Below are positions 2,057 to 33,302 of a stretch of 33,302 nucleotides of DNA, one piece after another; position 1 is the first letter of the stretch; every line of letters begins with the position of its first letter. Under the pieces are notes generated by a model. That model saw only the letters and a program-made list of their open reading frames with translations. It searched no databases and was not told where the DNA came from. Made by a program: the position numbers and the translations under genes. The stretch is taken from NCBI GenBank assembly GCA_003565135.1, contig PXDC01000318.1, forward strand, positions 1 through 33,302. The letters run 5' to 3'. The stretch is from Verrucomicrobiota bacterium. Lineage in GTDB: Bacteria; Verrucomicrobiota; Verrucomicrobiia; Opitutales; T3Sed10-336.

Positions 2057-2938
2057 CTAGGGCGTTGCGGGTTCGGTTCCGACCCGCTCGATGGTGTATC
2101 CCCGTTCCTCCAGGAGGGCCAGGATCCCCTTGTCGCCGAAGTAGTGTCCGAGTCCCACGGCGACAAATGCGCCGCCCGCTTCCAGGTGCGGCAGGGCCCG
2201 CTTTGTCATGGTCAGGTTCCGCTCGGTGAATAGCGCCTCGCGAAAGGCTTCGGGGGCGTCCTTCTTCAGCTCCAGCACGAGCCGGTGCATGGCGTCCGCA
2301 TCGCCGGCGGCGTAGTGTTCGATCAGCTTGCGGTAGGACGGGTAATGGTTCTCGGCTTCGTCCAGGGCGTCCTCGATCAATTGCAGGGTGGTCGATTCGT
2401 CGACCCCGCGGAAAACCGCCAGTTGCTCTTCCAGTGTTTCCAGGGCAACGATACGTAGCCCGTTTTCGCGGGCCGTCTGGTAGAGTTTTACGTCCATCAC
2501 TTCGGTGAAATCCTCGCCCGGCGGATGGCCCAGGAGGAAGGGGAGCATTTCAAAGGACACTTTTTCGAGCACGAGGTCCGGAAGGCCGAGCTTTTGGGTC
2601 GTGCGACGGAGGCGACGGTAGAGGTCGTCCGGAAGCCGTTCCCGCAGGCGGGAGTCCTCCCAGTCGAAAGCGGCTGCCAGCATGGCTCCGATGTTCTGTG
2701 GCGAGAGTTCGAGCTCGGGCAGAAAGACATCCGCGTTTGCCACCGCGTTGAGAACGGACGGAGGCAGTTCCCGCACCAGGGGGTGTGAGGAGTGGACCGT
2801 GCCCATCAGGTGACTGATGCGCCCGTCCTTTTCCGCCTCCCACAGGAAGGGATCGGTTCCCGGCAGTTCGGCCCGCGGCAGCAGGTACAGAAGGGAGAGT
2901 AAGATCAGGGCGAACGGCGGACGACGGGATCGGTGCAT
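2057..2938 (-). CDS. TraB/GumN family protein with signal peptide
   Basis: N-terminal hydrophobic signal; DGRISHLMGTVHSSHP...ADVFLPELELS...GGAFVAVGLGHYFGDKGILALLEERGYTIERV, typical of TraB/PrgY/GumN. Confidence 0.85.
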   Translation of the reverse strand: MHRSRRPPFALILLSLLYLLPRAELPGTDPFLWEAEKDGRISHLMGTVHSSHPLVRELPPSVLNAVANADVFLPELELSPQNIGAMLAAAFDWEDSRLRERLPDDLYRRLRRTTQKLGLPDLVLEKVSFEMLPFLLGHPPGEDFTEVMDVKLYQTARENGLRIVALETLEEQLAVFRGVDESTTLQLIEDALDEAENHYPSYRKLIEHYAAGDADAMHRLVLELKKDAPEAFREALFTERNLTMTKRALPHLEAGGAFVAVGLGHYFGDKGILALLEERGYTIERVGTEPATP

Positions 2939-3081
2939 GGGGAAAAGCTTAGATCAAAGGCTTCGTTATGCCCAATCTTTTTGATTTATAATCGCTCTAA
3001 AAAAACTGTAAACTTAGGTTAACGTTGCACTTCCGTATTGCTTCCTAGGGGTTGATGTTTTGTAAAACAAAGTCTCATTTT

Positions 3082-4122
3082 ATGCCGTCTTCGAAACACA
3101 GCGCCTTTTTTGTCGAATTCTCAAATGCCGGCTTTTTCCTGGCCCGTACCTCCGGGTACGGGCTTCCCATGACGGTGGAGGAAATTCACGAGGTTCCGGC
3201 TGAAAGCAAAGGCGGGATTGCACCGGTCCTGGAAAAGGCGGGGAGGCCGTCCCGGAGCGGTGCCTACACCCGTGCGCGGTGCGGCGTATATCCGCAAAAC
3301 CGCGTGCTGGGAAAGATCACGGTGGACGAGCCGCGCAAGGCCAGGGATCCCCGCTACCTCGAGGAGCGTGTGCGGGCCGAGTTCAATATCGACCCGGCCG
3401 CCTACAGTCTCGCCGTGCTCAATCCCGCTTCCGGGGTTCCCGCCGATGTGGGCAGCCTGATGGAGAAGGAGTTCTTTCTGTGCGGCGCACCGACCGACGA
3501 GTTTGGCGCCCTCCAGCGGGACCTCCTCAATCACGGCATTTTTCCCGACCGCCTCGAGCTGGGCAGCGTCGCCAGCCTCGGAGCGCTGGTTGACTACCAT
3601 CGTTTCGCCCGGGTCGAACACCCCACGCTGGTGCTCGAGATCGGGATGACCGACACGCGCGTCATTATTATCAAGGCCGGTGCCGTCGACTCGGCGCAGG
3701 TGATTCCCCAGGGGTTGCGTTCGATGATTGCCGTGGTTCAGCGGGAACTCGGACTCAAAGATGAGGCCGCGGCCCAGCGCCTGTTTTATTCCGAATCGTT
3801 CGATTTCAAGGAAATGGGTCCCAAGCTGGTCGATCGCCTCCTGCGTGAGTTGCAGTCATCGATCGGGTTTTACGAAGTTCAGACCGGATTGTCCGTTGGA
3901 CAGGTTCTGTGCATCAGGGCCCCGGAACAGCTTTCCTGGCTGAACAAAACCTTTGCCAAAAATTTAAACGTCGACCCCTTCAGTATCAATTTTCCGGAAT
4001 GGCTCGAGCAGAACGGCATTCAGTTGGGGCCGGAGATAAAAGCCGAAACCATACCCGTACGTTGGCTCGGCCTTTTCGGTCTCATGGCGGATACAAAACT
4101 TCCCGAGGATGAAACGAAGTAA
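3082..4122 (+). CDS. PilM-like actin-fold pilus/secretion assembly protein
   Basis: ORF 3052..4122, preferred ATG 3082 (MPSSKHSAFF). Position immediately upstream of PilN/PilO-like genes and a secretin; TLVLEIGMTDTRVIIIKAGAV resembles an actin-fold phosphate-binding segment. Confidence 0.6.
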   Translation: MPSSKHSAFFVEFSNAGFFLARTSGYGLPMTVEEIHEVPAESKGGIAPVLEKAGRPSRSGAYTRARCGVYPQNRVLGKITVDEPRKARDPRYLEERVRAEFNIDPAAYSLAVLNPASGVPADVGSLMEKEFFLCGAPTDEFGALQRDLLNHGIFPDRLELGSVASLGALVDYHRFARVEHPTLVLEIGMTDTRVIIIKAGAVDSAQVIPQGLRSMIAVVQRELGLKDEAAAQRLFYSESFDFKEMGPKLVDRLLRELQSSIGFYEVQTGLSVGQVLCIRAPEQLSWLNKTFAKNLNVDPFSINFPEWLEQNGIQLGPEIKAETIPVRWLGLFGLMADTKLPEDETK

Positions 4123-4726
4123 ACGAGATTCCAAACATTCGTCGTCCTGGCACCCCGACTTCCGGGATCCGGCGATGTTGCCGGACGTCAAGGTGGTGCG
4201 CACGTCATTCTTTGTGAATGGCTGTGCGCTCGTGGTGACCTGCGCGCTTCTCATATTCTTCGTTTACCGGGAGTACGAAATTGCCAGTGTCAAGGATCAG
4301 GTGGCGTCCTGGGAGGAGAGGATTGCCGAGCGGGGGCCGCAGAGTGAAGAGGTGTTGGAACTGGGTCGCGAATTCGCCGCCGAGAAGACCAAAGTCGACG
4401 AGTTGCTCGGGTTCGTGGCGGCACCTGTTTCCCCTTCCGAGTTCCTGGCCGCGGTTGCCCGCACGGTTCCGGATCGGGTGGTGATCACCCGTTTGAGTCG
4501 TCGCGATGTGGAGCAGGGACCGAGGGTGGCCCTGTCCGGTCGGGTGCAGGGTATTTCGGAGGAGGCTACGGATATCCTTTCCGCTTACGAGCGGCTGTTT
4601 ACGGAAGACGATTATTTTTCCCGTATCGTCGGTGACGTCGATGTTACGTCGGTTACGCGTAATCCGGAAACGGATACGCTATCGTTTAATTTTGTTCTCC
4701 ACCTGGAGGCCGATAACGAGGAGTAG
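4109..4726 (+). CDS. PilN-like single-pass membrane protein
   Basis: One TM helix (FFVNGCALVVTCALLIFFVY) followed by coiled coil and PilN-like domain; overlaps preceding ORF by 14 bp. Confidence 0.6.
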   Translation: MKRSKRDSKHSSSWHPDFRDPAMLPDVKVVRTSFFVNGCALVVTCALLIFFVYREYEIASVKDQVASWEERIAERGPQSEEVLELGREFAAEKTKVDELLGFVAAPVSPSEFLAAVARTVPDRVVITRLSRRDVEQGPRVALSGRVQGISEEATDILSAYERLFTEDDYFSRIVGDVDVTSVTRNPETDTLSFNFVLHLEADNEE

Positions 4727-4734
4727 GAGAGGCT

Positions 4735-5283
4735 GTGATGAATGCGAGTGTCCTGATTGATAAAGCCAAGGAGCGTCCGATCGTTTTTGTTTGTGCGGTC
4801 CTCAGCTTGATCCTTGTGGTTGCTGTCTTTGTTCGTTCCGGCGAGCTTTCGGATGCGAGGACGTCGCTCGAGAGCGCTTCGCGGGAAGGAACGCGCATCA
4901 ATGATAACATCAAAAATTCGTTAAACATCGGCGAGCATCTTGACTCTATTCGGGCGATTACGCATGATGTCGACGATCGCCTGGTTCGTCCGTCCGAACT
5001 GGCCCGCAATCTTCAATATTTTTACCGGCTGGAGGATGAGACAGGTGTGCGGATAGCGTCTTTGGATCAACGGGCGGCAGCGGGAGGAGATTCGGTGTAT
5101 TTGAGAGTTCCATACGAAATGGCGGTTGAGGGGGATTTTGTGAATCTGGTTACATTTATTCACGCGGTAGAGAATGGAAGGCATTTTGCCCGGATCAGGA
5201 ATTTCGAAATAATCCGTGCGCGCCAAACTGAATCCACTCTTCTGAGTATGGCGATTAATCTCGAACTGCTGGGGCGGCCATGA
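4735..5283 (+). CDS. PilO-like single-pass membrane protein
   Basis: N-terminal TM, coiled coil, and VYLRVPYEMAVEGDFVNLVTFIHAVENGRHFARI, a PilO-like signature. Confidence 0.65.
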   Translation: MMNASVLIDKAKERPIVFVCAVLSLILVVAVFVRSGELSDARTSLESASREGTRINDNIKNSLNIGEHLDSIRAITHDVDDRLVRPSELARNLQYFYRLEDETGVRIASLDQRAAAGGDSVYLRVPYEMAVEGDFVNLVTFIHAVENGRHFARIRNFEIIRARQTESTLLSMAINLELLGRP

Positions 5284-5708
5284 AATCAATCCGGGTAATC
5301 TGTGTTGTAACGGTCGCGCTCACGGGCTCCGTCGGGGGCCTCGGCCAGGTGGCGCCGCCCGAAACGCGGGAGGCCGTCCTGGAGGGAGTCCGGGCGGTCG
5401 TGGAGGCGGAGGTAACGTCGATCGACGCCCTTCTCGAAGGTGTGGTGGCCCATCCGTTTCATGCGCGTATGGACGCGGTGGCGGGAACCTCGACCGGGTT
5501 GGCCAGGATTGCGGAAAGACTTTCTCCGGACGGTACTATGCAGATGGGAGGCAGACGTTTTCTGCTTTTCGATGGCCGGCGCCTCGGCGCGGGTGAGTAT
5601 CTGTCGGTTGAATACGAAGGGCGAACGTATGAGGTGCAGGTGGTGGAGATTACAGCTTCCTCCTACACGTTGAGAATGAATGATGAGGAAATTGAAAGAA
5701 ACCTTTAA
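5280..5708 (+). CDS. Small secreted protein in secretin locus (positional PilP equivalent)
   Basis: N-terminal signal peptide; 4-bp overlap with PilO-like gene; followed by secretin. Confidence 0.55.
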   Translation: MKSIRVICVVTVALTGSVGGLGQVAPPETREAVLEGVRAVVEAEVTSIDALLEGVVAHPFHARMDAVAGTSTGLARIAERLSPDGTMQMGGRRFLLFDGRRLGAGEYLSVEYEGRTYEVQVVEITASSYTLRMNDEEIERNL

Positions 5709-5718
5709 CTCAAGAAAG

Positions 5719-7971
5719 ATGAAAAAAATGAACCCCAGACAACTGGTACTGTGTTTGCTGGCCGGCGCGATGCTGTCGCAGCCTGTTTCGGCGGAGGAGG
5801 CATCGTCTGCCGAGTCCGCCTCCATTGAGGCATTGTTGGAACACTTGGCGGATGAGCGCGACGATGTGACGCGCTTCGATCCCGTCGTTGAGGCGGTGGC
5901 CGGGGAGCCGGAGAGGGCGGCGGAGCTGGCCGCGGCTCTGTGCCGGGAATATCCCGCATTGGCCGGTGCGATTGTCCGCAGCATTGTGGCCGGACTGCCG
6001 GACGGTGATAATGTGTCCGACATCGTGCGGGCGGCGGTCAAAGCGGCGCCGGAATCCATGCAGGATATTGTCGCCGCCGCGACCGCGGAGGCACCCGGAC
6101 AGGAGGATGTTGTCTCGGCGGCGGCGGGCGAAGCCCTGCGGGAGCTTGCCGATGACGAGCTCCGCGTCGAAGAAGACGAGGAGACGGATGCTCCGGCGGT
6201 CTTAGGGGACGATGAGTACGCCGAGATCGAAGATGAAGAGTTGGAAACCATCTCGGTCGATTTTCCCGATACGAATATCCGCACCATCCTTCGAAGCGTG
6301 GCGGATCTTTACGAACTCAACCTGGTGATACCGGAGGAACTGACGGGTCAGGCTTCGGTTCAGTTGCGGGATGTGACCTGGCGGCAGGTGTTCGATATCG
6401 TGTTGTCACCGATCGGGTACACGTACGTTGAAGAAGAGGGGATCATTCAGGTGGTCAGGGATGACTTCGTCGACCTGGGGGTTCCGGACGAACAGGTGAC
6501 CATGCACGACGATGGTACGATGACGGTGAACTTCGACAATGTACCCATCGCGGATATCGTTACGCGGGTATCGTCGGCGGCGGACATTAATGTGGTCATT
6601 CCGCAGGATTTCATGACGATGGGGGCTGAGGCGACCGCCACCATCCGGTTGCGCAACGTGGGCTGGCAGCAGGTCTTCGACGTTTCGCTTTCGCAGGTGG
6701 GATACGGCTACATCGACCGGGATGACATTATCCGGATCGAAACCCTGGACCGGATTCAAGCGGTACCGCCGGCCACCCGGGTCATTCAGGTTAAGTTTCC
6801 CCCGGCTTCGGCTATTGCCGAGCTCGTCAGTAACCTTTCCGGGGTGCAGCAGGTCCAGGTCGACAGTGGAACGAACGTCCTGATCGTGACCGCGGAAGAA
6901 GGGAAGATGCGCGAGGTGCAGAGCCTGGTCGACCGGCTGGACCAGCCCGCCCAGCAGGTTCTCATCGAAGCGATGTTCATCGAGGTGTCGGGGACCGACG
7001 CCCGCGACCTCGGGGTCAAATGGCAATCGCTCGCCGATGGCATGGAGGTGTCGGCCGGCCCGGCGACCCATCGGTGGGAACGCATGCGCGGTCAGGCGGA
7101 TCCGGGTTTCAGCGACCTGATGGAATCGGTGGGCACCGCCCGCCATTCCGAGGCGATTTTCAACGCCTCCGAGTTCAATGCGATTCTGACGGCGCTGCAG
7201 CGCGAGACGGACGCCCGGCTGACGGCCAGTCCGACGGTGGTGACCATGAACGCGGAGGAAGCGGAGATCCAGGTGATCGACCACCTCTACCGTGACGGTG
7301 CCATCAACGTCTTCGGCACCGGGCAGCCGGGAGATCCGGTACGGGAATCCTTCGAGGAGCCGATCCTGCTGGAACCGCTTCCCGGTATTATGCTCGCGGT
7401 CACGCCCACGATCAGTGGCGGCGACTTGATAAATCTCAGGGCCCGCCCGGAAATCAACAATGTGGTGGGTACACAAACGCTGGGGCAGGGTCAGGTTATC
7501 CCCACCATCCGGCAGCGCACCGTGACCTCGAACGTGATGGTCAAAAGCGGACAGACGCTGGCCATGAGCGGTCTGGCGGACGAGGATTCGGTGACCGTTG
7601 AAAGCAAGGTGCCGCTGCTCGGGGACATTCCGGTGGTCGGACGCCTGTTCCGGAGCGATTCGCGCGACAGCCTGAGGAAGGACCAGATTATCTTTATCAC
7701 GGCGACCATTACCGATCCCGACCGGCACAATTACACCGATTTCATCGACGAACGCCGGATGATGGAAATGGATCTGTCGCACCGCGAGATCCAGGGATCG
7801 CAATACCAGCGGACGGCCGAGGAAGAGCAGTATCTCGAGGAGCTGTCTCGCTGGCGCAGTGAACAGCAGAGGGAGCAGATCCGCCAGATGATGGAGGACC
7901 TGGAGCAGGACGATCCGGAGGGAACCCGGGAGAGCCGTGGAGCCCGCACCGGTCCCCGTCAACGCAGGTAA
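5719..7971 (+). CDS. Secretin (PilQ/GspD superfamily) with N-terminal helical repeat module and two STN-like domains
   Basis: ORF 5680..7971, likely ATG 5719. QVLIEAMFIEVSGTDARDLGVKW, VTPTISGGDLINLRARPEIN, VMVKSGQTLAMSGLADEDSVTVESKVPLLGDIPVVGRLFRSDS, diagnostic of the secretin domain. Confidence 0.92.
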   Translation: MKKMNPRQLVLCLLAGAMLSQPVSAEEASSAESASIEALLEHLADERDDVTRFDPVVEAVAGEPERAAELAAALCREYPALAGAIVRSIVAGLPDGDNVSDIVRAAVKAAPESMQDIVAAATAEAPGQEDVVSAAAGEALRELADDELRVEEDEETDAPAVLGDDEYAEIEDEELETISVDFPDTNIRTILRSVADLYELNLVIPEELTGQASVQLRDVTWRQVFDIVLSPIGYTYVEEEGIIQVVRDDFVDLGVPDEQVTMHDDGTMTVNFDNVPIADIVTRVSSAADINVVIPQDFMTMGAEATATIRLRNVGWQQVFDVSLSQVGYGYIDRDDIIRIETLDRIQAVPPATRVIQVKFPPASAIAELVSNLSGVQQVQVDSGTNVLIVTAEEGKMREVQSLVDRLDQPAQQVLIEAMFIEVSGTDARDLGVKWQSLADGMEVSAGPATHRWERMRGQADPGFSDLMESVGTARHSEAIFNASEFNAILTALQRETDARLTASPTVVTMNAEEAEIQVIDHLYRDGAINVFGTGQPGDPVRESFEEPILLEPLPGIMLAVTPTISGGDLINLRARPEINNVVGTQTLGQGQVIPTIRQRTVTSNVMVKSGQTLAMSGLADEDSVTVESKVPLLGDIPVVGRLFRSDSRDSLRKDQIIFITATITDPDRHNYTDFIDERRMMEMDLSHREIQGSQYQRTAEEEQYLEELSRWRSEQQREQIRQMMEDLEQDDPEGTRESRGARTGPRQRR

Positions 7972-14378: not shown

Positions 14379-15881
14379 ATGTTAAAGGGTTTTCGCAGGG
14401 TTTTCGCTCTCGTATTGATCGCGGCCGGTGCCGGTTTGATGGCCTCGGAGCCGCGCGATTCCGCCGGGGACGAAACGGAGGCCGGCGAGCGGGCCGAACC
14501 GGCGGAAGCCGGTGATATCAAGACGGTTTACATCCTGCCGGTGCGGGATCAGATCGGCCGACCCATTCAGTACATTCTGCGCCGGGGAATGAAGGAGGCC
14601 GTGGCGGAGGGGATCGACCTGGTGGTGCTCGACATGGATACGCCGGGCGGTCGGCTCGATACCACGCTCGAGATCATGGAGATGATGGGCCGGTTTGACG
14701 GTGAGACCCTCACGTTTGTCAATCCGGACGCGATCTCCGCCGGAGCGTTCATTGCCGCCTCAACCAAGGAAATCTATTTTTCACCGCGCGGCGTCATGGG
14801 GGCGGCTGCGCCCGTTACCGCCACCGGGGAGGATATCCCGGAGGCCATGCAGCAGAAGATCCTGAGTTTCCTCAAAGCGCGGATACGTTCGTTCACCGAA
14901 GAGGTGCCCTACCGGGCGGACGTGCTGACGGCGATGGTGGACGCCAGTTTCGAGCTGATCATCGACGACGAAGTGATTTCCGCCGAAGGAGAACTCCTGA
15001 CCCTGACGGCCAGCGAGGCGGTGAAAAAGTACGGTGACCCTCCCTTTCCCCTGCTGGCGGCGGGGGTACACGATTCCATAGAAGCGCTGCTCGATGACCG
15101 GTTCGGCGCGGGCCAATACGAGATCAAGGAATTCACGGTGACGTGGTCCGAACACCTGACCCAGTACATTGCGAGCATCGCGCCGATCCTGATCGGCCTG
15201 GGATTGGTCATGCTCTACCTCGAGGCACAGAGTCCGGGGTTCGGGGTGTTCGGAATAATCGGTGTCACGGCCCTGGCGATTTTTTTCCTCGGCAATTACG
15301 CGGCGGGCCTCGCCGGCTACGAGCCGGTTCTGTTTTTTCTCCTGGGGCTGGTCTTTATTGCGGTCGAGGTCTTTTTTTTACCGGGCACGTTTGTTTTCGC
15401 CGTTCTGGGGATCCTGTTTGTGCTCGGTTCCCTGATATACGGTATGGCCGATATCTGGCCGGAAGAAGGCTTTTCGTTTTCGCCCGAAGTCCTGATCGAG
15501 CCGACACTCAATGTCTTCGCCGGTTTGATCCTGGCGTTTGTGCTCGCCATCCTGTTCGCCCGGTTGGTTCCGCGCTCGTGGTTCCTCGATCGGTTGATCC
15601 TCACTTCGGCTATATCCGGTTCCTCGCAGGGAGTCCTGGCGGGGGAGGGGGCACCGGGGGCGGAGACCGGGGCCGCCGCGTCGCCGGCCTCCGGCATCTC
15701 GGGTAAGCCGCCGATCGGGGCGCGGGGACGAGCCGTGACCGACCTGTATCCAAGCGGCGAGGTGGAGATCGACGGCCGGCGCTTCCAGGCCCGCGCCGAA
15801 TACGGAAGCGCCGAGGCCGGGGCGGAGATCGAGGTGGTCCGGTACGGTGATTTCGTGCTTATCGTGCGCGAGATTTCCTGA
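14379..15881 (+). CDS. NfeD-like membrane-bound ClpP-class serine protease homolog
   Basis: ATG 14379; DLVVLDMDTPGGRLDTTLEIMEMM; NPDAISAGAFIAASTKEIYFSPRGVMGAAAPV; C-terminal TM bundle and NfeD OB-fold-like domain. Confidence 0.88.
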   Translation: MLKGFRRVFALVLIAAGAGLMASEPRDSAGDETEAGERAEPAEAGDIKTVYILPVRDQIGRPIQYILRRGMKEAVAEGIDLVVLDMDTPGGRLDTTLEIMEMMGRFDGETLTFVNPDAISAGAFIAASTKEIYFSPRGVMGAAAPVTATGEDIPEAMQQKILSFLKARIRSFTEEVPYRADVLTAMVDASFELIIDDEVISAEGELLTLTASEAVKKYGDPPFPLLAAGVHDSIEALLDDRFGAGQYEIKEFTVTWSEHLTQYIASIAPILIGLGLVMLYLEAQSPGFGVFGIIGVTALAIFFLGNYAAGLAGYEPVLFFLLGLVFIAVEVFFLPGTFVFAVLGILFVLGSLIYGMADIWPEEGFSFSPEVLIEPTLNVFAGLILAFVLAILFARLVPRSWFLDRLILTSAISGSSQGVLAGEGAPGAETGAAASPASGISGKPPIGARGRAVTDLYPSGEVEIDGRRFQARAEYGSAEAGAEIEVVRYGDFVLIVREIS

Positions 15882-15900
15882 TAGCGTCCTCTCCTGACCT

Positions 15901-16368
15901 ATGTTGAGCCTGATTATCGGATTGTTTGTCCTCGGGTTGGTTTTTTTCTTCTTCGAATTGATTGTTCCCGGCGGAATCCTCGGCATGATCGGGGCGCTCG
16001 CCATGCTGGGCGGGTGCGTGCTGGCGTTTGTGGAGTACGGGGCCGGCGGGGGCATGCTCACGTTCATGATCTTTTCCGTGCTGGCCGTCGCCTGCCTGGT
16101 CCTGGAACTGAAGATTCTGCCCCGGACACGGCTCGGGGGAAGTCTTTTCCTGGATGACGCCATTTCCGGGACCAGCCAGAAGCCCGCGGGGGAGCGCGAA
16201 TTGATCGGGCTCGAGTGTGAAGCCTTGACGACCCTTTCCCCTACCGGTTTAGTGAAGATCGAGGGAAAACAGTACGAGGCTTTTTCCCAGAGCGGCCTGG
16301 TCAATCGCGGTGCGCGCTTGAAAGTGGTCGATGTCGATAATTTCCGAGTGAAAGTCAGCAAGCTATGA
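15901..16368 (+). CDS. NfeD-like short membrane protein
   Basis: TM segments plus C-terminal [41 protein letters not shown] NfeD OB-fold. Confidence 0.85.
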
Positions 16369-17399
16369 ACCCAACCGTTATTGTCCTTATCGTTCTTGGT
16401 GTCATCGTCGTGATCGCGGCGGGCATCTTTTTCTCTTTCCTGAGCGTTTGGTTGCGCGCCTGGCTGGCCGGTGCCTATGTCAGCATCACCAACCTCGTGG
16501 CCATGCGGCTGCGCCAGGTTCCGTATGGACTGGTGGTCGACGCCCGGATTACGGCCAAAAAGGCCGGTATCGAGCTGAGCTCCGACGAACTCGAAGCCCA
16601 TTACCTGGCGGGTGGAAGCCTGATCCCCACCGTCCAGGCGCTGGTCGCGGCCATGAAAGCCGGGATCCCGCTGGACTTTACCCGCGCCTGTGCGATCGAC
16701 CTCGCCACGCGGGGCAGCGGCAAGTCGGTCGTGGAAGCGGTCCGCACATCGGTCGATCCGAAGGTGATCGATTGCCCCAACCCGGCCCAGGGTCGTTCGA
16801 CCATCGACGGGGTCGCCAAAGACGGTATCCAGGTGAAAGTGCGGGCCCGGGTGACCGTGCGGACCAACCTCGATCGTTTTGTCGGCGGTGCCAAGGAGGA
16901 AACCATCATCGCCCGGGTGGGCGAGGGCATCGTCACGACGATCGGCTCGGCCGATTCCTACAAAACGGTCCTGGAAAGTCCGGACGCGATTTCCAAGATG
17001 GTGCTGCAGCGCGGGCTCGACGTGGGGACCGCCTTCGAGATTCTTTCCATTGACATCGCCGATGTGGATGTCGGCGAGAACGTCGGCGCCCAGCTTCAGG
17101 AGGCCCAGGCCGAGGCGAACAAGAATATGGCCCAGGCCCAGGCCGAAATCCGCCGTGCCGCGGCGGTGGCGCTCGAGCAGGAAAACAAGGCGAAGGTCCA
17201 GGAGATGCAGGCCAAGGTGGTCGAGGCCCAGGCCCAGGTACCGCTCGCCATGGCCGAGGCGTTCCGCCAGGGCAATCTCGGGGTCATGGATTACCAGCGC
17301 TTCATGAATATCCAGTCCGATACCGACATGCGCAAATCCATCGCCCGTCCGGATGCGGGCGATACTCCCGGGGCGACTCCCAAGCCCGGCGGCAAGTAG
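16365..17399 (+). CDS. floA: Flotillin-like protein FloA (UPF0365)
   Basis: [71 protein letters not shown]; starts overlapping nfeD stop. Confidence 0.95.
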
Positions 17400-25582: not shown

Positions 25583-26485
25583 ATGCCGAAACACATCCCG
25601 CCCGTCAATCGCCGTCAGTTCCTCTCCACCGCCGCTGTAACCGCCGCCGGCTGGCTTACCTTCGGGGCCTCCGGATTCGCCGCGGACTCGGACGTGGATC
25701 CCGATTATTACCTGCTCCTGGCGGATACCCACATCGACCGCAATTCGAACCGCCTCCTCCGCGGCGTCAACACGGCCGAACACCTCGATATTGCGGTCAA
25801 ACGCATCGTCGAGCTTCATCCCCGGCCCGCCGCGGTGATCATCAATGGCGATGCCGCCAACATTCGCGGATACCTCGGTGAATACGGGCTGCTCAGCTGG
25901 ATCCTGCGTCCCCTGTCCCGGGCCGGTATCCCGGTCCACATTACCATGGGCAACCACGATGACCGGGGACCGTTTTATACCGTACTGGCCGATATGGAAC
26001 GGGAGGCCCCCTTTGTCGACGGGCGGCACCTCGACATTCTCGAAACGCCCAACGTCTACCTTTTTCTGCTCGATACCCTCGATCAGGTTAACCAGACGCC
26101 GGGATTGCTCGGCGAGCGGCAACTCGAATGGCTGGACCGCGCCCTGGCGAAACATGCCGACAAACCCGTCATCCTGTTCGGCCACCACTTCCCGGAGACC
26201 GGAACCGGTCGCGGACTGCAGGATATCGAGGCCCTGTACGCGATCGCCCTGTCACATCCGCATGTGAAGGCCTATTTCTACGGGCACTCTCATCGCTGGG
26301 AGCTCGGCAAACACGAAGACCTGCACCTGGTCAATCAGCCCGCCACCGGTTACGTTTTTCGGGAGGAGCAGCCCGGTGCCTACGTCCACGCCCGGTTTCA
26401 GGCCGACCGGGTAGAGCTCAAACTCGACTGCATCGACCGCGAGCATCCCTGGCACGGTCAGACCCATTCCCTGGCGTATCGCTGA
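25583..26485 (+). CDS. Calcineurin-like metallophosphoesterase with Tat-type signal
   Basis: NRRQFLSTAAVTAAGWL Tat-like signal; LLADTHIDR, INGDAAN, TMGNHDDRG, GHHFPETG, YGHSHRWE metal-binding motifs. Confidence 0.9.
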   Translation: MPKHIPPVNRRQFLSTAAVTAAGWLTFGASGFAADSDVDPDYYLLLADTHIDRNSNRLLRGVNTAEHLDIAVKRIVELHPRPAAVIINGDAANIRGYLGEYGLLSWILRPLSRAGIPVHITMGNHDDRGPFYTVLADMEREAPFVDGRHLDILETPNVYLFLLDTLDQVNQTPGLLGERQLEWLDRALAKHADKPVILFGHHFPETGTGRGLQDIEALYAIALSHPHVKAYFYGHSHRWELGKHEDLHLVNQPATGYVFREEQPGAYVHARFQADRVELKLDCIDREHPWHGQTHSLAYR

Positions 26486-26491
26486 ACCGCT

Positions 26492-27442
26492 TTATTCGCG
26501 CAGTTTTTTGCCCGTGGAGAGCAGGTACAGGGCGACCGCACCAAAGACCGCAACCGAGCCGGCCACCAGGAACAGGCCGAATCCCACCGGCACGTCGGTC
26601 ACACCGGTCATTCCGTAACGCAGCCCGTTGACCATGTAGAGAATCGGATTGACCAGGGAAACCGTATCCCACGGCGAGGGCAGCATATCGATCGAGTAAA
26701 ACACCCCGCCCAGGAAAGTCAGCGGCATCAGGAGGAAGCTGGGGAAGATGTTGATGTGATCGAAATCCTCCGCCAGGATGGCGACCACGAGGCCGAACAG
26801 GGCGAAAGCCAGTGAGGTCAGGATCATAAAAATGAGGGTGAATGCCGGATTGTGCAGGGTCGATGCGCCCATAACGCCCGCGACCGCCCAAATAAGACCG
26901 CCGATAATGAGGGCGCGCAGAAGCGAGGCCGCGATATAGCCGATAATAAGTTGCAGGGGTGAAAGCGGGGTGAGCAGCACGTCGACGACCGAACCGTGGA
27001 TTTTGGAGATAAACAGGGAAAAACCCGTATTCAGAAATGAGTTATTGATCAGGTTGAGCATGATCAGGCCGGGTACCAGGAAATCCACGTAGGGGATCCC
27101 CTGGATCTCGTCGAGGCGGCTGCCCAGGGAGTACCCGAACACGATAAACCACAGGATGGTCGTGAGCACCGGGCTGACAATGGTTTGCCCGGCCACTTTC
27201 ATAAAGCGCGCCAGCTCGCGCCGGAAAAGCATCCACGTCCCTCTCCAGCCGCGGTTATTCCGGGCGCGCGTTTCGACCGCCGCAATGTGCCTCCGGGCGG
27301 CCTCTTCCGCGCCCGGAGGAGGCCGCCCGTCGCCGGTCGCCACGGGGGAACCGGGCCCGTCGGCGGTTGCGGTTGTCCCCGGCGTCATCACGTCTCCGCG
27401 GTGCGGTTGCCGGGTCTCGGCGGATAAGTTGTCTGAAGTCAT
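26492..27442 (-). CDS. ABC-2 type transporter permease
   Basis: VAGQTIVSPVLTTILWFIVFGYSLGSR...LVPGLIMLNLINNSFLNTGFSLFISKIHGSVVDVLLTPLSPLQLIIGYI; long disordered N-terminus, exact start uncertain. Confidence 0.88.
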   Translation of the reverse strand: MTSDNLSAETRQPHRGDVMTPGTTATADGPGSPVATGDGRPPPGAEEAARRHIAAVETRARNNRGWRGTWMLFRRELARFMKVAGQTIVSPVLTTILWFIVFGYSLGSRLDEIQGIPYVDFLVPGLIMLNLINNSFLNTGFSLFISKIHGSVVDVLLTPLSPLQLIIGYIAASLLRALIIGGLIWAVAGVMGASTLHNPAFTLIFMILTSLAFALFGLVVAILAEDFDHINIFPSFLLMPLTFLGGVFYSIDMLPSPWDTVSLVNPILYMVNGLRYGMTGVTDVPVGFGLFLVAGSVAVFGAVALYLLSTGKKLRE

Positions 27443-27494: not shown

Positions 27495-28454
27495 TCATGG
27501 GCGATCGGAGTGAACGACCTCGCGGAAGATATCCTCGAGGCGATTTCGTCCCCCTTCGAGTGTTTCCACCTCGAGGCCGGCGTTTTGCAGGGCCAGCATG
27601 AGGCGTTTGACGGGGGCTTCCTCGCCGGCACGGTGGTGTGCGCTTTCGGGAAAGGTGATGCGGAGGCGGTCGGGCGCCGGGGTCTCCGGCACGTACTCCG
27701 CGAGTGCGTTCACCAGGTCCCGGGGGACGGTGCCGGAGAGTCGGACTTCGATCCAGCGTCTTCCGAAGGTACGCATCAGATTGTCGCGGGAATCGACCCG
27801 GAGGAGGCGTCCGCGGTTGATGATTCCGATCCGGTCGGCCAGGTTTTCGGCCTCTTCGAGGTAGTGCGTGGTGAGCACGATGGTGGTCCCGGCATCCCTG
27901 AGCCTCGAGATGTAGCTCCACAGTTCTTCGCGCAGATCGACGTCCACCCCCGCGGTCGGTTCATCCAGGAAAAGGAGGGCCGGCTGGTGCATGAGCGCTT
28001 TGCAGACCATGAGCCGGCGTTTCATGCCCCCGGAGAGCTTACGGGTATTGGCTTTGGCCTTGTCCGCGAGGGCGAAGGTCTCCAGCAGCCGGTCGCCGCG
28101 TTCCCGGTTTCCCCGGCTGCCGAAATACCCGCCCTGGTAACGCAGCGTCTCGGCGGTGGGAAAAAAACCGTCGAAATTGAGCTCCTGCGGCACGAGGCCC
28201 ACCAACTGGCGGGTGATTTGATAGTCGCGGCGCACGTCGTAGCCGGCGACGCGGATGTCGCCCTCGAAATTCGAAATCAACCCGGTGATACAGCCGATCA
28301 TGGTGGTTTTGCCCGCCCCGTTGACCCCGAGCAGAGCGAAGATCTCGCCCGGGCGAATGTCCAGGGAGACGCCATCGACCGCGGTGAGGTTGCCATACCG
28401 CTTGGACAGGTTGCGTATCGACAGCAGGTGGGATTGGGAATAAGGATCGGCCAT
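27495..28454 (-). CDS. ABC transporter ATP-binding protein
   Basis: Walker A GVNGAGKTT, signature KLSGGMKRRLMV, Walker B LLFLDEPTAGVD. Confidence 0.95.
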   Translation of the reverse strand: MADPYSQSHLLSIRNLSKRYGNLTAVDGVSLDIRPGEIFALLGVNGAGKTTMIGCITGLISNFEGDIRVAGYDVRRDYQITRQLVGLVPQELNFDGFFPTAETLRYQGGYFGSRGNRERGDRLLETFALADKAKANTRKLSGGMKRRLMVCKALMHQPALLFLDEPTAGVDVDLREELWSYISRLRDAGTTIVLTTHYLEEAENLADRIGIINRGRLLRVDSRDNLMRTFGRRWIEVRLSGTVPRDLVNALAEYVPETPAPDRLRITFPESAHHRAGEEAPVKRLMLALQNAGLEVETLEGGRNRLEDIFREVVHSDRP

Positions 28455-28660
28455 GAATGATTGCCGCGGTTCACGCGGCCTGACTGCGGCTTTGGCGTTG
28501 AGGATTATCGAAAGTCGGCTTTGAATTTGAATTGGCGCACGGTCCGGGCGGTCGAATCCGGTTTCGGCCGGCAGGGCTCGGTCCGGGCCGGGGATACCGC
28601 GCCCGGAACGGTCGTTGTTTCGGCCTGCATGACGAATCCGAAAATCCTAGTTTAACCGAT

Positions 28661-30682
28661 TTGAAACGCAAGAATTCCCAGGGTTTATCACCCAACGCCC
28701 TCTGGCAGAAGCTCAATGACCCGTCGGCGCCGCTGGTGGAGCAGGTCTGGCCGGAGGAAAAAAAGCTCGGGTTCCTCGACGCCTTGCGGGAAATGGATGA
28801 CCGGGCGCACGACCGGATGGTCACCACCTTCCGTATTGCCCGCGAGTTCAACGAGGTCCCCATTCTCGCGGTGGCCGGCCCGATCAACGGGGGCAAATCT
28901 TCCCTGGTCGGATCGTTTCTCTCCGCCGCCGGCCGCGCCCGCGTTCCCATCGGCCTGGGCAGCCGGCAGGGTACCCAGCGATTTGTGCTCTGGATTCCCC
29001 GGGCGTGGCGCGACAACGCCGCGGTTTTCGACCGGTTGCACGAGTTCCTCGGCCTGGTCTTCGAGCAACCTCCGGAATGCCTGGCGGCCGACCCGGCCAC
29101 CGCCCGGGAGCAGTATGCCGATGTGAGCCGTTTTTCCAGCCCCCTGTTCGCGGTGGACGACCACCTGGATCGACATGGGATCGCCCTGCTCGATTGTCCC
29201 GATATGCAGCGCCTGCAGGAAAATGAGAGAGAAGGGGAGAACCTCCGGATGCAGGCGATCGCGAGGGCGGCGGAGATCTGCGCCGGGGTGGTGGTGGTCA
29301 CGCCGCGCTCGCAATTGGAGATTCGTGATCTCGCCGATCTCGTGCGCCAGAGGATTCCCGAGGCGGTGCGGATCTATGCCGTCAATCTGATGCGTCCGCC
29401 CGAACCGCCGGAGAACGTCCACGAGGAATTGCGCCGGGCGCTCAATACCAACGAAGCGATCCTCTGTTACGGGGCCTATGATTTTCTGGTGCCGTCCGGT
29501 TTCGGGTATTCGCCGGCGTGGGACGGGAACCGCGATCGGCCGGAAGGCGAGCGGATTCCCTGCTTCTTCCGGATCGATCCCGCGGCCGGCGCGAACCGGC
29601 CGGAACAAATCGGACCGGAGCGTTCCATTCTCCGGCTGGCCGACCAGGTGCGCCCGGCCGTCATGGGCCAGAAGCGGCAGCGCGAACTCATCGGCGACCT
29701 GATCGGGCAGGCCCGGCGGAACCTGGCGGCATTGACCTCCCGGGCGGAGACGGATCGCGCCCGGTTGAGGCGGGCGGCGGAGGAGCTGTATGCCGCCGCC
29801 CACGACCTGATGCACGATCGGGACGGCCGCCTGCGCCTCAAGATGGATCCCGAGATCGTGCTGAGTTTCAAGGAAAGCATGGAGCGGACGGCTCCCCTGC
29901 ACCTGAAGCCGGTGATGGCCTTGCGCCGGCGAGTGGTGGAACGGGCGGCCGAGGTGGTCCGGCAGGGAAGGGAGGCGATCGCCCGGGCGGTTCCCTGGAT
30001 CCGGGCGCACGGCCGGTACCGGGTCCTGCAGAAGCGCCTGCGGAAACAACTCATCCAGGTTGCCGATATCGAAAAGCTCCTGTACCGGTGGGCGGTGGCG
30101 ACGCGGGAAGCGCCTCCGGACCGCTCCTGGAACGAAGAGGCGCGCGGAATCCTCGAGCGCTACCGCAGCGAGGAACGCACCAATATGAGCCGCGACGAAT
30201 GGGATGCGATCGCCCGCCGGATCTGGCGCAACACGAGCAAACTCAAGGCGACGGTCCATATTTTCGGATCGTTCTTCGTCGGCCTGGCCGCGGTGATCCT
30301 GATCCCGTTTGACGGCGGGGCCTCCGTCCTGGGGATTACCGCCCTGGAGCTCCTCGGGGTCCTCGGGTTCAGCGGATTGCTGGCCGCCGGGACCCTTCGC
30401 ATGCTCGATCGGGAATTGAACGAAAAGGTCGGGTACCGCCAGTTCAGTAATTTTGTCACCCTTGCCGCCGATCACATCGGTTTGCCGAGAAGTGTCGTGG
30501 AGGAGCTTCTGCGGGAGAAAGGGCTTTTCAATCCCTCCGTAAAATCGCATCTTCCCCAAAGGTGTTTCGGTATTTCCGATGCCGGCTGGCGCCTTTACCG
30601 GATCGATCCGGCGGCGGCGAAAGAGCTCGGCCGTTACCTGGAACGATGGGAGAAGGAAAACCATGCCCTCGAAATTGCTTGA
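28661..30682 (+). CDS. Large dynamin-like P-loop GTPase with C-terminal TM hairpin (partner 1)
   Basis: ORF 28532..30682; start uncertain (TTG 28661 chosen). G1 GPINGGKSS, G2-like GTQRF, G3-like LLDCPD, hydrophobic hairpin VHIFGSFFVGLAAVILIPF...LELLGVLGFSGLLAAG. Confidence 0.7.
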   Translation: MKRKNSQGLSPNALWQKLNDPSAPLVEQVWPEEKKLGFLDALREMDDRAHDRMVTTFRIAREFNEVPILAVAGPINGGKSSLVGSFLSAAGRARVPIGLGSRQGTQRFVLWIPRAWRDNAAVFDRLHEFLGLVFEQPPECLAADPATAREQYADVSRFSSPLFAVDDHLDRHGIALLDCPDMQRLQENEREGENLRMQAIARAAEICAGVVVVTPRSQLEIRDLADLVRQRIPEAVRIYAVNLMRPPEPPENVHEELRRALNTNEAILCYGAYDFLVPSGFGYSPAWDGNRDRPEGERIPCFFRIDPAAGANRPEQIGPERSILRLADQVRPAVMGQKRQRELIGDLIGQARRNLAALTSRAETDRARLRRAAEELYAAAHDLMHDRDGRLRLKMDPEIVLSFKESMERTAPLHLKPVMALRRRVVERAAEVVRQGREAIARAVPWIRAHGRYRVLQKRLRKQLIQVADIEKLLYRWAVATREAPPDRSWNEEARGILERYRSEERTNMSRDEWDAIARRIWRNTSKLKATVHIFGSFFVGLAAVILIPFDGGASVLGITALELLGVLGFSGLLAAGTLRMLDRELNEKVGYRQFSNFVTLAADHIGLPRSVVEELLREKGLFNPSVKSHLPQRCFGISDAGWRLYRIDPAAAKELGRYLERWEKENHALEIA

Positions 30683-32462
30683 ATCCTGTTTGACCCTGGC
30701 CGACACCGTGGAGCACCAGGCCGGGGTGCTCGGTCTGGTGCGCAACGGCGACGCCGAGTTGGTCCGGTTGTGCCATGAATTCCGGCGTTCCTGCCGGGAG
30801 ATTGCCGGGAACCGGGGGATCGAGCGCATCACGCTCGCCTTTACCGGACCGAAGAATTCCGGCAAGACCTGTTTGCTGTCTCAGTTCGTGCGGGCCGAAG
30901 GCGTGCGCAAGCGCTTGCGGGTGGGGTACGCCCGGGCGGAGGCGACGGAAAAGACCACGTGGGTCGGGCCGGAGCCTCCGGCCGACTTGCGGCCGGAGTA
31001 CGAGGCCCATATCCATTGCTCCGAAAACGAGATGGAGGCGATCGGGTTTCCCTACACCCTGGTCGACGTCCCGGGATTGAACGAGGCGGACGAAGGGCGG
31101 GCGAAGGCGGCGCGCCGGGCGTTGGACAATGCCCTGATCAAGGTCTTTGTCGTCGCCCAGCGGGAAATGGAGGATAAAGCCGTTTTTCAATACCTTTCCC
31201 GGGCCGATGGCTCCCTGATTCTGCCGGTGATCAATTTCGTGCGCGAGGAACCGTCAAGCGGGGACGTGGAGGGATTCCGCGAACGGCTGCGGACCTTTGT
31301 CCCGCACGCTGAAGTGATGTCGCCGGTTTTGATCCCGGATCTCGGCCTGAGCGGCGACGGGGACGATTCGCGGGCGGTGTCGTCGTCTCCGGAAATGGCG
31401 GTTTCGCTGCGGAAGGCGATCGGGGAAGCGGCGGGTTTCAGCCGGATGGGGGACGTCCCCCGTTCCCAGTTGTTGCAGACGTTGCGGCGGTTTCAGGAAG
31501 AGGTGTCCGCGCTGGTAACGGCGCAGCTTCCCGCCAGCCGGCGGGCCCTGGACGCTCTCCGGGAATTCGAACGCAGTCTGCCGAGGGAAACCCTGGGCCA
31601 CCTCCTCGAACCGGAATCGGTGTTTCGGGCCGGCGTCCGGCAGCGGCTGCGAACGGTTTTCCTGCAGCGAACGCCTTATGCGTTCTTTCCCTGGCGCCTG
31701 GTGCTGGTTCTGGCCAACCTGCTCCACGGAGCTTTGGAACGGGTTCCGCTGGCCCTGATGGGGAGCGTCCCGTCGTTCGTTTCCAGTGCGTTTGCCGCAG
31801 CCAGGAATCTCCGCGATGCGCGGCGGTTTTCACAAGGTGTTCAGGGAGGCATACGCGATTACGTCGAAAGCGCGGTGAAGGAGAAGATCACCCCCGGAAT
31901 GCGGGATCTCGAGTTTGCCCTGAACCGGGAATTGGGTACGGAAGCGGAATCCTCCGCCGGGCGTTCGGAGGAACTTGAGGTTACGGTGACGGGCCTGGAA
32001 AACCTGCAGGCCCGTTCGTCCGGCATCTTTCAGCGCGCGGTGGAAACCTGGGCGCCGTCCCGGCCGGCGGCAATCCTGTACGGGTTGTGCGGGTTTCTCA
32101 TTTTCTGGGGCTTTTTCGCCTGGCCGGTTTACGGACTTTACCTCGATTTTTTCCAGGCCGTTCGCGATACGATCGCCGGCGGCGAGGGCGTTTCGGGGAA
32201 CTTTCCCGCCGCTCCGTTCGGGATGCTGGGGACCAGTCTGCTTCTCGCGTTGCTGCCGATGGGCTTTTTTATGCTGGTGACCCTGTCCGTCCTGGTCCGG
32301 CCGGGCCGGGTCACGGAATGTGTCGATGAGATTCGGCGGGAGCACGACGAGGCCGTTGCCGAACTGGTTCAATCCGGATTGCTGACGGTCAAGGTGGAAC
32401 AGCCCCGCCTCGATGCCTGCATGTATTTGATCAACCTTCCCTCGGAAAGAATCGACGGCTGA
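30663..32462 (+). CDS. Large dynamin-like P-loop GTPase with C-terminal TM segments (partner 2)
   Basis: ATG 30663; overlaps partner 1 by 20 bp. G1 GPKNSGKT, G3 LVDVPGLNEAD, two TM helices near C-terminus (ILYGLCGFLIFWGFFAWPVYGLYL; MLGTSLLLALLPMGFFMLVTLSVLV). Confidence 0.75.
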   Translation: MPSKLLESCLTLADTVEHQAGVLGLVRNGDAELVRLCHEFRRSCREIAGNRGIERITLAFTGPKNSGKTCLLSQFVRAEGVRKRLRVGYARAEATEKTTWVGPEPPADLRPEYEAHIHCSENEMEAIGFPYTLVDVPGLNEADEGRAKAARRALDNALIKVFVVAQREMEDKAVFQYLSRADGSLILPVINFVREEPSSGDVEGFRERLRTFVPHAEVMSPVLIPDLGLSGDGDDSRAVSSSPEMAVSLRKAIGEAAGFSRMGDVPRSQLLQTLRRFQEEVSALVTAQLPASRRALDALREFERSLPRETLGHLLEPESVFRAGVRQRLRTVFLQRTPYAFFPWRLVLVLANLLHGALERVPLALMGSVPSFVSSAFAAARNLRDARRFSQGVQGGIRDYVESAVKEKITPGMRDLEFALNRELGTEAESSAGRSEELEVTVTGLENLQARSSGIFQRAVETWAPSRPAAILYGLCGFLIFWGFFAWPVYGLYLDFFQAVRDTIAGGEGVSGNFPAAPFGMLGTSLLLALLPMGFFMLVTLSVLVRPGRVTECVDEIRREHDEAVAELVQSGLLTVKVEQPRLDACMYLINLPSERIDG

Positions 32463-32991: not shown

Positions 32992-33302
32992 TTATTTTGT
33001 TGGCAACGGGCTGTTTGCGGATCTCATCGCCGCGTTTTTCCGGGTGCGGGAGCCGGCGGTCCGGGCGTCGCCGTTCCCGGTGAGAAAGGGGCGCGTGGGG
33101 CTCGCGGGGCATTGGGAAAGCCCGGACACGGGACCCTGAAAAAGCACCCGGCCTCCGAGGTCGCCCCCTTCGGGCCCGATTTCGACGAGGTAATCGGCCT
33201 CCTCCAGGAGGTCGGTATTGTGTTCGATGACGATGACCGTGTGCCCCTGGTCGACCAGGCGGTGCAGGAGGTGGATCAGGTTTTCACAGTCGCTGAAATG
33301 AA
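32992..33302 (-). CDS. uvrA: Excinuclease ABC subunit A, C-terminal fragment
   Basis: Minus-strand translation HFSDCENLIHLLHRLVDQGHTVIVIEHNTDLLEEADYLVEIGPEGGDLGGRVLFQGP...; stop TAA at 32994-32992; truncated by window. Confidence 0.88.
   Translation of the reverse strand, partial: HFSDCENLIHLLHRLVDQGHTVIVIEHNTDLLEEADYLVEIGPEGGDLGGRVLFQGPVSGLSQCPASPTRPFLTGNGDARTAGSRTRKNAAMRSANSPLPTK

Follow-up and report, generated by a model that had tools for sequence, protein, structure and literature searches.

The 33,302-nucleotide stretch analyzed here (the window) is contig PXDC01000318.1, or C147, of a 4.2-Mb metagenome-assembled genome from the Verrucomicrobiota (GCA_003565135.1). Toward its end lie two overlapping genes for large proteins, P1 and P2, which probably constitute a divergent, hetero-oligomeric pair of bacterial dynamins that tethers or protects the membrane. 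The dynamin-like fold and the pairing can be put forward with considerable confidence, while the more specific idea that the pair protects or tethers membrane is conjecture by analogy and is offered tentatively. Bacterial dynamin pairs are widespread, and both their role and the reason for their pairing are poorly understood. The pair described here lies outside every profile library tried, and its fixed membrane anchors go together with a G4 motif that would not be expected to recognize guanine.

Fold and kinship of P1 and P2

The strongest evidence for a dynamin-like fold comes from P2. A model built from seven sequences (predicted local distance difference test score (pLDDT) 74, predicted template modelling score 0.63) consists of an alpha/beta GTPase (G) domain followed by long helices, with a pair of transmembrane (TM) helices close to the end. 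When the P1 and P2 models were searched against the PDB with Foldseek, P2 gave 22 matches at E<=1e-3, and all 22 belong to the dynamin superfamily, which directly supports its fold class. The top match is BDLP (E 1.7e-8), and others include the Cj-DLP pair, IniA, DRP1, LeoA, mitofusins and SynDLP. The P1 model is poor (pLDDT 56), with a partly reliable G domain and a stalk whose pLDDT is below 50; the best eight matches of this weak model are nonetheless all dynamin-superfamily proteins (dynamin-1, E 1e-4; Fzo1, 5e-4). For both models, dynamins, mitofusins and bacterial dynamin-like proteins (DLPs) rank above Era, MnmE and HflX. The assignment to dynamins made in the original prediction thus draws strong support from the fold search for P2 and weaker support for P1.

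The two proteins are also related to each other. Alignment of the P1 and P2 family profiles with hhalign gives a probability of 96% (E 2e-9, score 81) over the G domain, whereas neither family scores above 57 against Der, Obg or MnmE-like proteins, or against either of two canonical dynamin families encoded in the same genomes; the Der, Obg and MnmE-like labels of these control clusters were assigned by P-loop contexts and lengths. P1 and P2 also share an unusual N[LF]xR at the G4 position. Judged by these alignments, they are paralogues whose G domains are mutually nearest among the GTPase families compared.

The gene pair and its distribution

As the original prediction had described, two open reading frames of about 670 and 600 codons overlap by 20 bp, with ATG 30663 inside the end of P1; the P-loop motifs quoted for them, GPINGGKSS and GPKNSGKT, are present and conserved among homologues, and a C-terminal hydrophobic hairpin or TM pair occurs in all seven homologues of each protein. 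The P1 frame on the + strand (28532-30682) has 716 codons counted from its first TTG, but the true start is probably the TTG near 28661 (about 673 residues), because the gene of the relative G002 likewise opens with a TTG, at the equivalent residue (MKRKKSQGL), and no similarity extends further upstream.

The overlap measures 20 bp in G001, G002 and G006 and 23 bp in G003, calculated from gene coordinates, so that overlaps of 20-23 bp are found in five of the seven genomes that carry the pair. Since it is kept in four relatives, it is not a matter of chance. Because P1 and P2 are co-oriented and overlapping, they are probably translationally coupled. Both genes are under purifying selection (nonsynonymous divergence, dN, 0.19-0.31; synonymous divergence, dS, 1.1-1.6).

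A first genome scan using P2 alone found no relatives. With the P2 alignment as query, six were found, all in Opitutales/Opitutia records (prefixes SLOW01, JAIUMY01, PWMU01, SLTG01, PXBO01 and JAFIGF01). In GTDB, SLOW01 and JAIUMY01 are genera of family T3Sed10-336, since renamed Verruconatronaceae; this lineage is abundant in soda lakes, and its first isolate was described in 2026 (PMC13274419). The window is assigned to the family on the strength of these shared records. Among 373 Opitutales genomes, P1 and P2 occur in the same seven, one copy of each. These are seven of the eight T3Sed10-336 genomes, the eighth (G004, 88% complete) lacking both genes, and none of the 365 other Opitutales genomes carries them. 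In a sample of 388 genomes from across the phylum, P1 was detected only in its own genome. Within the genomes searched, the pair is confined to this single soda-lake family.

Adjacency of two distinct DLP genes, a trait of bacterial dynamin pairs, is seen in five of the seven carriers, and linkage and overlap are kept in two genera, g1 and g2; in the other two carriers, which belong to a third genus, g4, both genes are present but unlinked. The predicted pairing is therefore directly supported by co-occurrence in every carrier and by the conserved overlap, but linkage is not obligatory.

Nucleotide-binding motifs

G1 is intact in every full-length member of both families. The Asp of G4 is the residue by which P-loop GTPases read guanine, and in the dynamin superfamily the guanine-specifying G4 is [NT]KxD, or RD in the GBP/atlastin type. 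At the G4 position, where strand beta-5 ends in the two models, all 14 sequences (seven P1 and seven P2) instead have N[LF]xR, and the RD substitute is absent from this place in the P1 and P2 of the window. NKxD is nearly universal among the canonical dynamins that these genomes encode. G3 divides the pair: P2 has DVPG, in keeping with DxPG, and P1 has DCPD, each in seven of seven sequences. The non-canonical G4 of both proteins and G3 of P1 had not figured in the original prediction, which called both proteins GTPases.

With Arg standing where the G4 Asp would be, both proteins probably have an altered affinity for nucleotide or an altered base specificity, and their assembly may be less dependent on guanosine triphosphate (GTP). 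Since DxPG is kept in P2 and lost in P1, catalysis more likely falls to P2, with P1 in a supporting role.

Membrane segments

Hydropathy directly supports membrane segments in both proteins. The P1 hairpin comprises two hydrophobic stretches flanking a conserved IPFDGG turn and is kept in all seven homologues. In P2, the model places helices at residues 467-504 and 518-544, matching the TM pair. A further region of P2 (residues ~345-382) is conserved and also hydrophobic, and is poorly modelled. The P1 hairpin and the P2 TM pair correspond to the membrane-binding tip or TM segments characteristic of bacterial dynamin-like pairs. Coordinates are collected in Table 1.

Table 1. Positions of the P1/P2 genes, their parts and neighbours in the window, and of the canonical dynamin loci
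Feature	Position	Strand	Details
Divergent ATP-binding cassette (ABC)-2 exporter, YadH/DrrA-like (NCBIfam)	permease 26492-27388; ATPase 27495-28454	minus	
Intergenic region, ~206 bp	28455..28660		shared upstream of P1 and the divergent ABC-2 exporter genes
P1, large dynamin-like protein, ~673 residues	28661..30682	+	frame open back to TTG 28532; stop 30680-30682; G1 GPINGGKSS, switch I GTQRFVLW, G3 DCPD, G4-position NLMR; hydrophobic hairpin near C terminus
P1 hydrophobic hairpin	30242..30406	+	residues ~524-578 (numbered from 28673); hydropathy
P1 end/P2 start overlap	30663..30682	+	exactly 20 bp
P2, large dynamin-like protein, 599 residues from ATG 30663	30663..32462	+	G1 GPKNSGKT, switch I ATEKTTW, G3 DVPG, G4-position NFVR; two TM segments
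P2 TM pair	32061..32306	+	residues ~467-492 and ~514-548; hydropathy, kept in 7/7 homologues
DLP-A/DLP-B, locus L056 (G000:C131)	2683-4881 and 4878-5816		
DLP-A/DLP-B, locus L057	2787-5009 and 5057-6418		

Gene neighbourhood

The pair sits among chromosomal housekeeping genes (yidC, metW, uvrA). The ABC-2 exporter beside it is kept in G006, is represented in G002 by open reading frames of matching length and position, and in G001 consists of the permease alone. Downstream genes differ among relatives (uvrA, lptFG, amidohydrolase). A function drawn from gene context was rejected, given the incomplete exporter in G001, the varying downstream genes and the unrelated contexts in g4.

Several other features of these neighbourhoods were recorded. 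Downstream of the pair in G002 (L015 11931-17603) is an apparently tandem-duplicated UvrA, a 1890-residue UvrA-like protein with two matches to the UvrA interaction domain, and the end of the window (32992-33300, minus strand) resembles the same gene by eye. A metallophosphoesterase at 25583-26485 resembles the 2',3'-cyclic nucleotide phosphodiesterase SpdA, at 88.6 bits far below the NCBIfam cut-off of 400. At 14379-17399, some 11 kb away from P1 and P2, lie genes for two NfeD proteins and then a flotillin-like FloA; in B. subtilis a genetic link joins dynamin to flotillin (PMC3551649). A PilO-like protein and a secretin with an STN domain, encoded at 4738-7971, form a cluster resembling those for pili or type II secretion. 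Among the g4 genomes, P2 is flanked on one side by an alpha-2-macroglobulin gene in G007 (L019 1575-7886) and closely preceded by a pilin-like (N_methyl) gene in G005 (L021 927-1415).

Proposed mechanism and alternatives

From these observations we infer a complex, its use of nucleotide and its function as follows. P1 and P2 would assemble into a hetero-oligomer fixed to the cytoplasmic membrane, P1 touching P2 through the G domains in the manner of Campylobacter Cj-DLP1/2. Assembly on the membrane would then tether, patch or fuse the bilayer, and the outcome would be the protection of membrane integrity in an obligately haloalkaline habitat. Tethering or protection is the likeliest role because of the analogy with Cj-DLP1/2 (PMC6104087) and with DynA, which gathers and clusters at damaged membrane (PMC8844932). 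Cells of the family's first isolate have a loose wall and undergo rapid lysis once in stationary phase (PMC13274419), traits that make a membrane-protecting role plausible without amounting to a test of it.

Several results weigh against this model. Global TM-scores are 0.2-0.3, inter-domain angles are unmatched and parts are badly modelled; as regards the neck (BSE) and stalk bundles of the superfamily, the long helices that follow the P2 G domain align along the whole of BDLP, but with scores in this same range. Placement among dynamins by fold accordingly means rank and local fold, not whole-protein superposition. The P1 stalk is essentially unmodelled. Pfam Dynamin_N stays below its cut-off in both families, reaching at best 14.9 bits (P2) against 27, with no match for the P1 of the window. 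The G3 Gly is missing from P1 in all seven sequences. [NT]KxD is found at the G4 position in none of the 14 sequences; because of this loss, GTPase activity is not to be assumed, and the label is, as far as the motifs go, unproven for both proteins. Both g4 genomes carry P1 and P2 on separate contigs among unrelated neighbours, and between the two g4 species DNA identity is 96% for P1 and 73% for P2.

One alternative is that P1 and P2 are membrane-anchored P-loop proteins of the generic Era/Der (TRAFAC) type with long helical tails, rather than mechanochemical dynamins. The sole curated sequence match is to MMR_HSR1, barely above its cut-off (22.0 against 21.9 bits), and the P2 profile is equally close to Der (89%) and to canonical dynamin (87%), a further point against the dynamin assignment, to which the unmodelled P1 stalk adds. 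Profile comparison alone did not discriminate the Der, Obg and MnmE-like controls and was dropped as a means of placement; because sequence profiles do not separate dynamins from Der-type GTPases, the assignment rests on fold. There, dynamins, mitofusins and bacterial DLPs outrank Era, MnmE and HflX for both proteins, the P2 alignment covers BDLP well beyond the G domain, and size, a helix-rich body and a TM pair within the helical part fit the architecture of bacterial DLPs. NCBIfam EngA scores 14.8 bits against a cut-off of 306.7, and NKxD is lacking, so neither protein belongs to the Era/Der type by these measures. Generic Era/Der-type proteins are thus an unlikely explanation.

It may also be that P1 and P2 have separate functions and form no complex, their adjacency in g1 and g2 being historical. 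The lost linkage in both g4 genomes and the very different divergence of the two genes there would fit such a history. However, every genome with one gene has the other, g4 included; the overlap is conserved in four relatives; and each G domain has the other as its closest relative among those compared. The canonical dynamin pair is split in g4 as well, which indicates that rearrangement there is not specific to P1 and P2. The g4 P1 locus and its neighbour are 96% identical (L020 5715-10356 and L022 2133-7954), with short repeats alongside, as against 81-82% for two other loci, and may reflect recent transfer, recombination or a binning artefact from a contaminated bin. Independent functions are accordingly improbable.

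A dynamin-type anti-phage system is very unlikely. DynA delays lysis and phage release, protecting at the level of the population (PMC8844932), and the PADLOC LeoA profile matches P2 very weakly (E 0.0042, 14 bits), too weakly for membership; P1 matches neither LeoA nor LeoBC. However, the neighbourhood is one of chromosomal housekeeping genes, no defence genes adjoin the pair, PADLOC matches on the adjacent ABC ATPase are those of a generic ATPase, and P2 has no homologue in viral contigs and no match among plasmids. The defence reading was rejected as being without any supporting context. A vesicle-release machine like that proposed for LeoABC, which is linked to vesicle-associated secretion (PMC4159319), can be given equally little credence: LeoA is among the P2 fold matches (4aur, E 1.7e-5) and a divergent ABC-2 exporter adjoins the pair in several genomes, but sequence kinship to LeoABC is not above chance, the exporter has no known link to vesicles and no secretion substrate is encoded nearby.

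The membrane-anchored dynamin pair is therefore preferred, and its novelty can be stated more narrowly than at first. It had been put forward as a candidate undescribed two-component membrane system. The word undescribed holds for the sequences, since searches of Pfam, NCBIfam, PADLOC and PDB sequences name no family for either protein, but not for the system, as two-component membrane systems are known for bacterial dynamins (PMC6104087, PMC4159319). Neither the P1 and P2 sequences nor the absence of a guanine motif from both is described in the libraries and literature searched; paired bacterial dynamins, on the other hand, are known, and the pair looks like an unusual variant of these rather than a wholly new system. 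A more specific proposal, possible but doubtful, is that it represents a heterodimeric dynamin lineage without guanine recognition, in which paralogous subunits of dynamin fold, anchored in the membrane and sharing Asn-x-x-Arg without exception in place of [NT]KxD, differ in switch II (DVPG in P2, DCPD in P1) and use another nucleotide, or are under little nucleotide control, beside a canonical pair in the same cell. If so, a dynamin machine can persist while its nucleotide specificity changes, and an asymmetric pair with one intact and one degenerate switch II would be available for studying division of labour. Verruconatronaceae now have a cultured member (PMC13274419).

Comparison with known dynamin systems

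One comparison lies within the same genomes. A canonical dynamin pair, DLP-A/DLP-B, occurs at another locus in the genome of the window and in relatives (G000:C131, G002:C74 and others). These are GTPases that, like P1 and P2, are large and encoded side by side: DLP-A has about 735 residues and no TM segments, and DLP-B, about 453 residues and EHD-like, also has a TM hairpin. Unlike P1 and P2, both exceed the Dynamin_N cut-off (48-63 bits in G000), and NKxD is present in nearly all. The LeoBC and LeoA profiles of PADLOC are matched by this separate pair (for example on G000 contig C131). LeoA/LeoBC of enterotoxigenic Escherichia coli resemble P1/P2 in that LeoA is a fold match of P2 and in the logic of a paired operon; LeoA alone shows neither binding nor hydrolysis of GTP (PMC4159319).

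Mitofusins and yeast Fzo1, which are fold matches of both models, resemble P1 and P2 in having integral TM segments towards the end of the helix-rich body. However, they are outer-membrane fusogens with no sequence kinship to P1/P2 and a different G4. Nostoc BDLP1 (2J69), the best PDB fold match of P2, aligns over the full length at 12% identity, and has a transient paddle where P2 has a TM pair. Because the predicted helices leave only about 50 residues after the P2 TM pair, a full return of the chain to the neck looks unlikely.

Campylobacter jejuni Cj-DLP1/Cj-DLP2 (PMC6104087) differ from P1/P2 in having no detectable sequence similarity to them; the TM pairs of P1 and P2 are strongly hydrophobic, and non-canonical motifs at G4 (both) and G3 (P1) further set them apart from the Campylobacter proteins. 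The likeness lies in two adjacent, co-oriented large dynamin-like genes, and Cj-DLP structures are among the fold matches of both proteins (5owv and 5oxf for P2, 5oxf for P1). In most cases bacterial DLPs are encoded by neighbouring pairs of genes; Cj-DLP1/2 can tether liposomes and depends on the P-loops of both proteins (PMC6104087).

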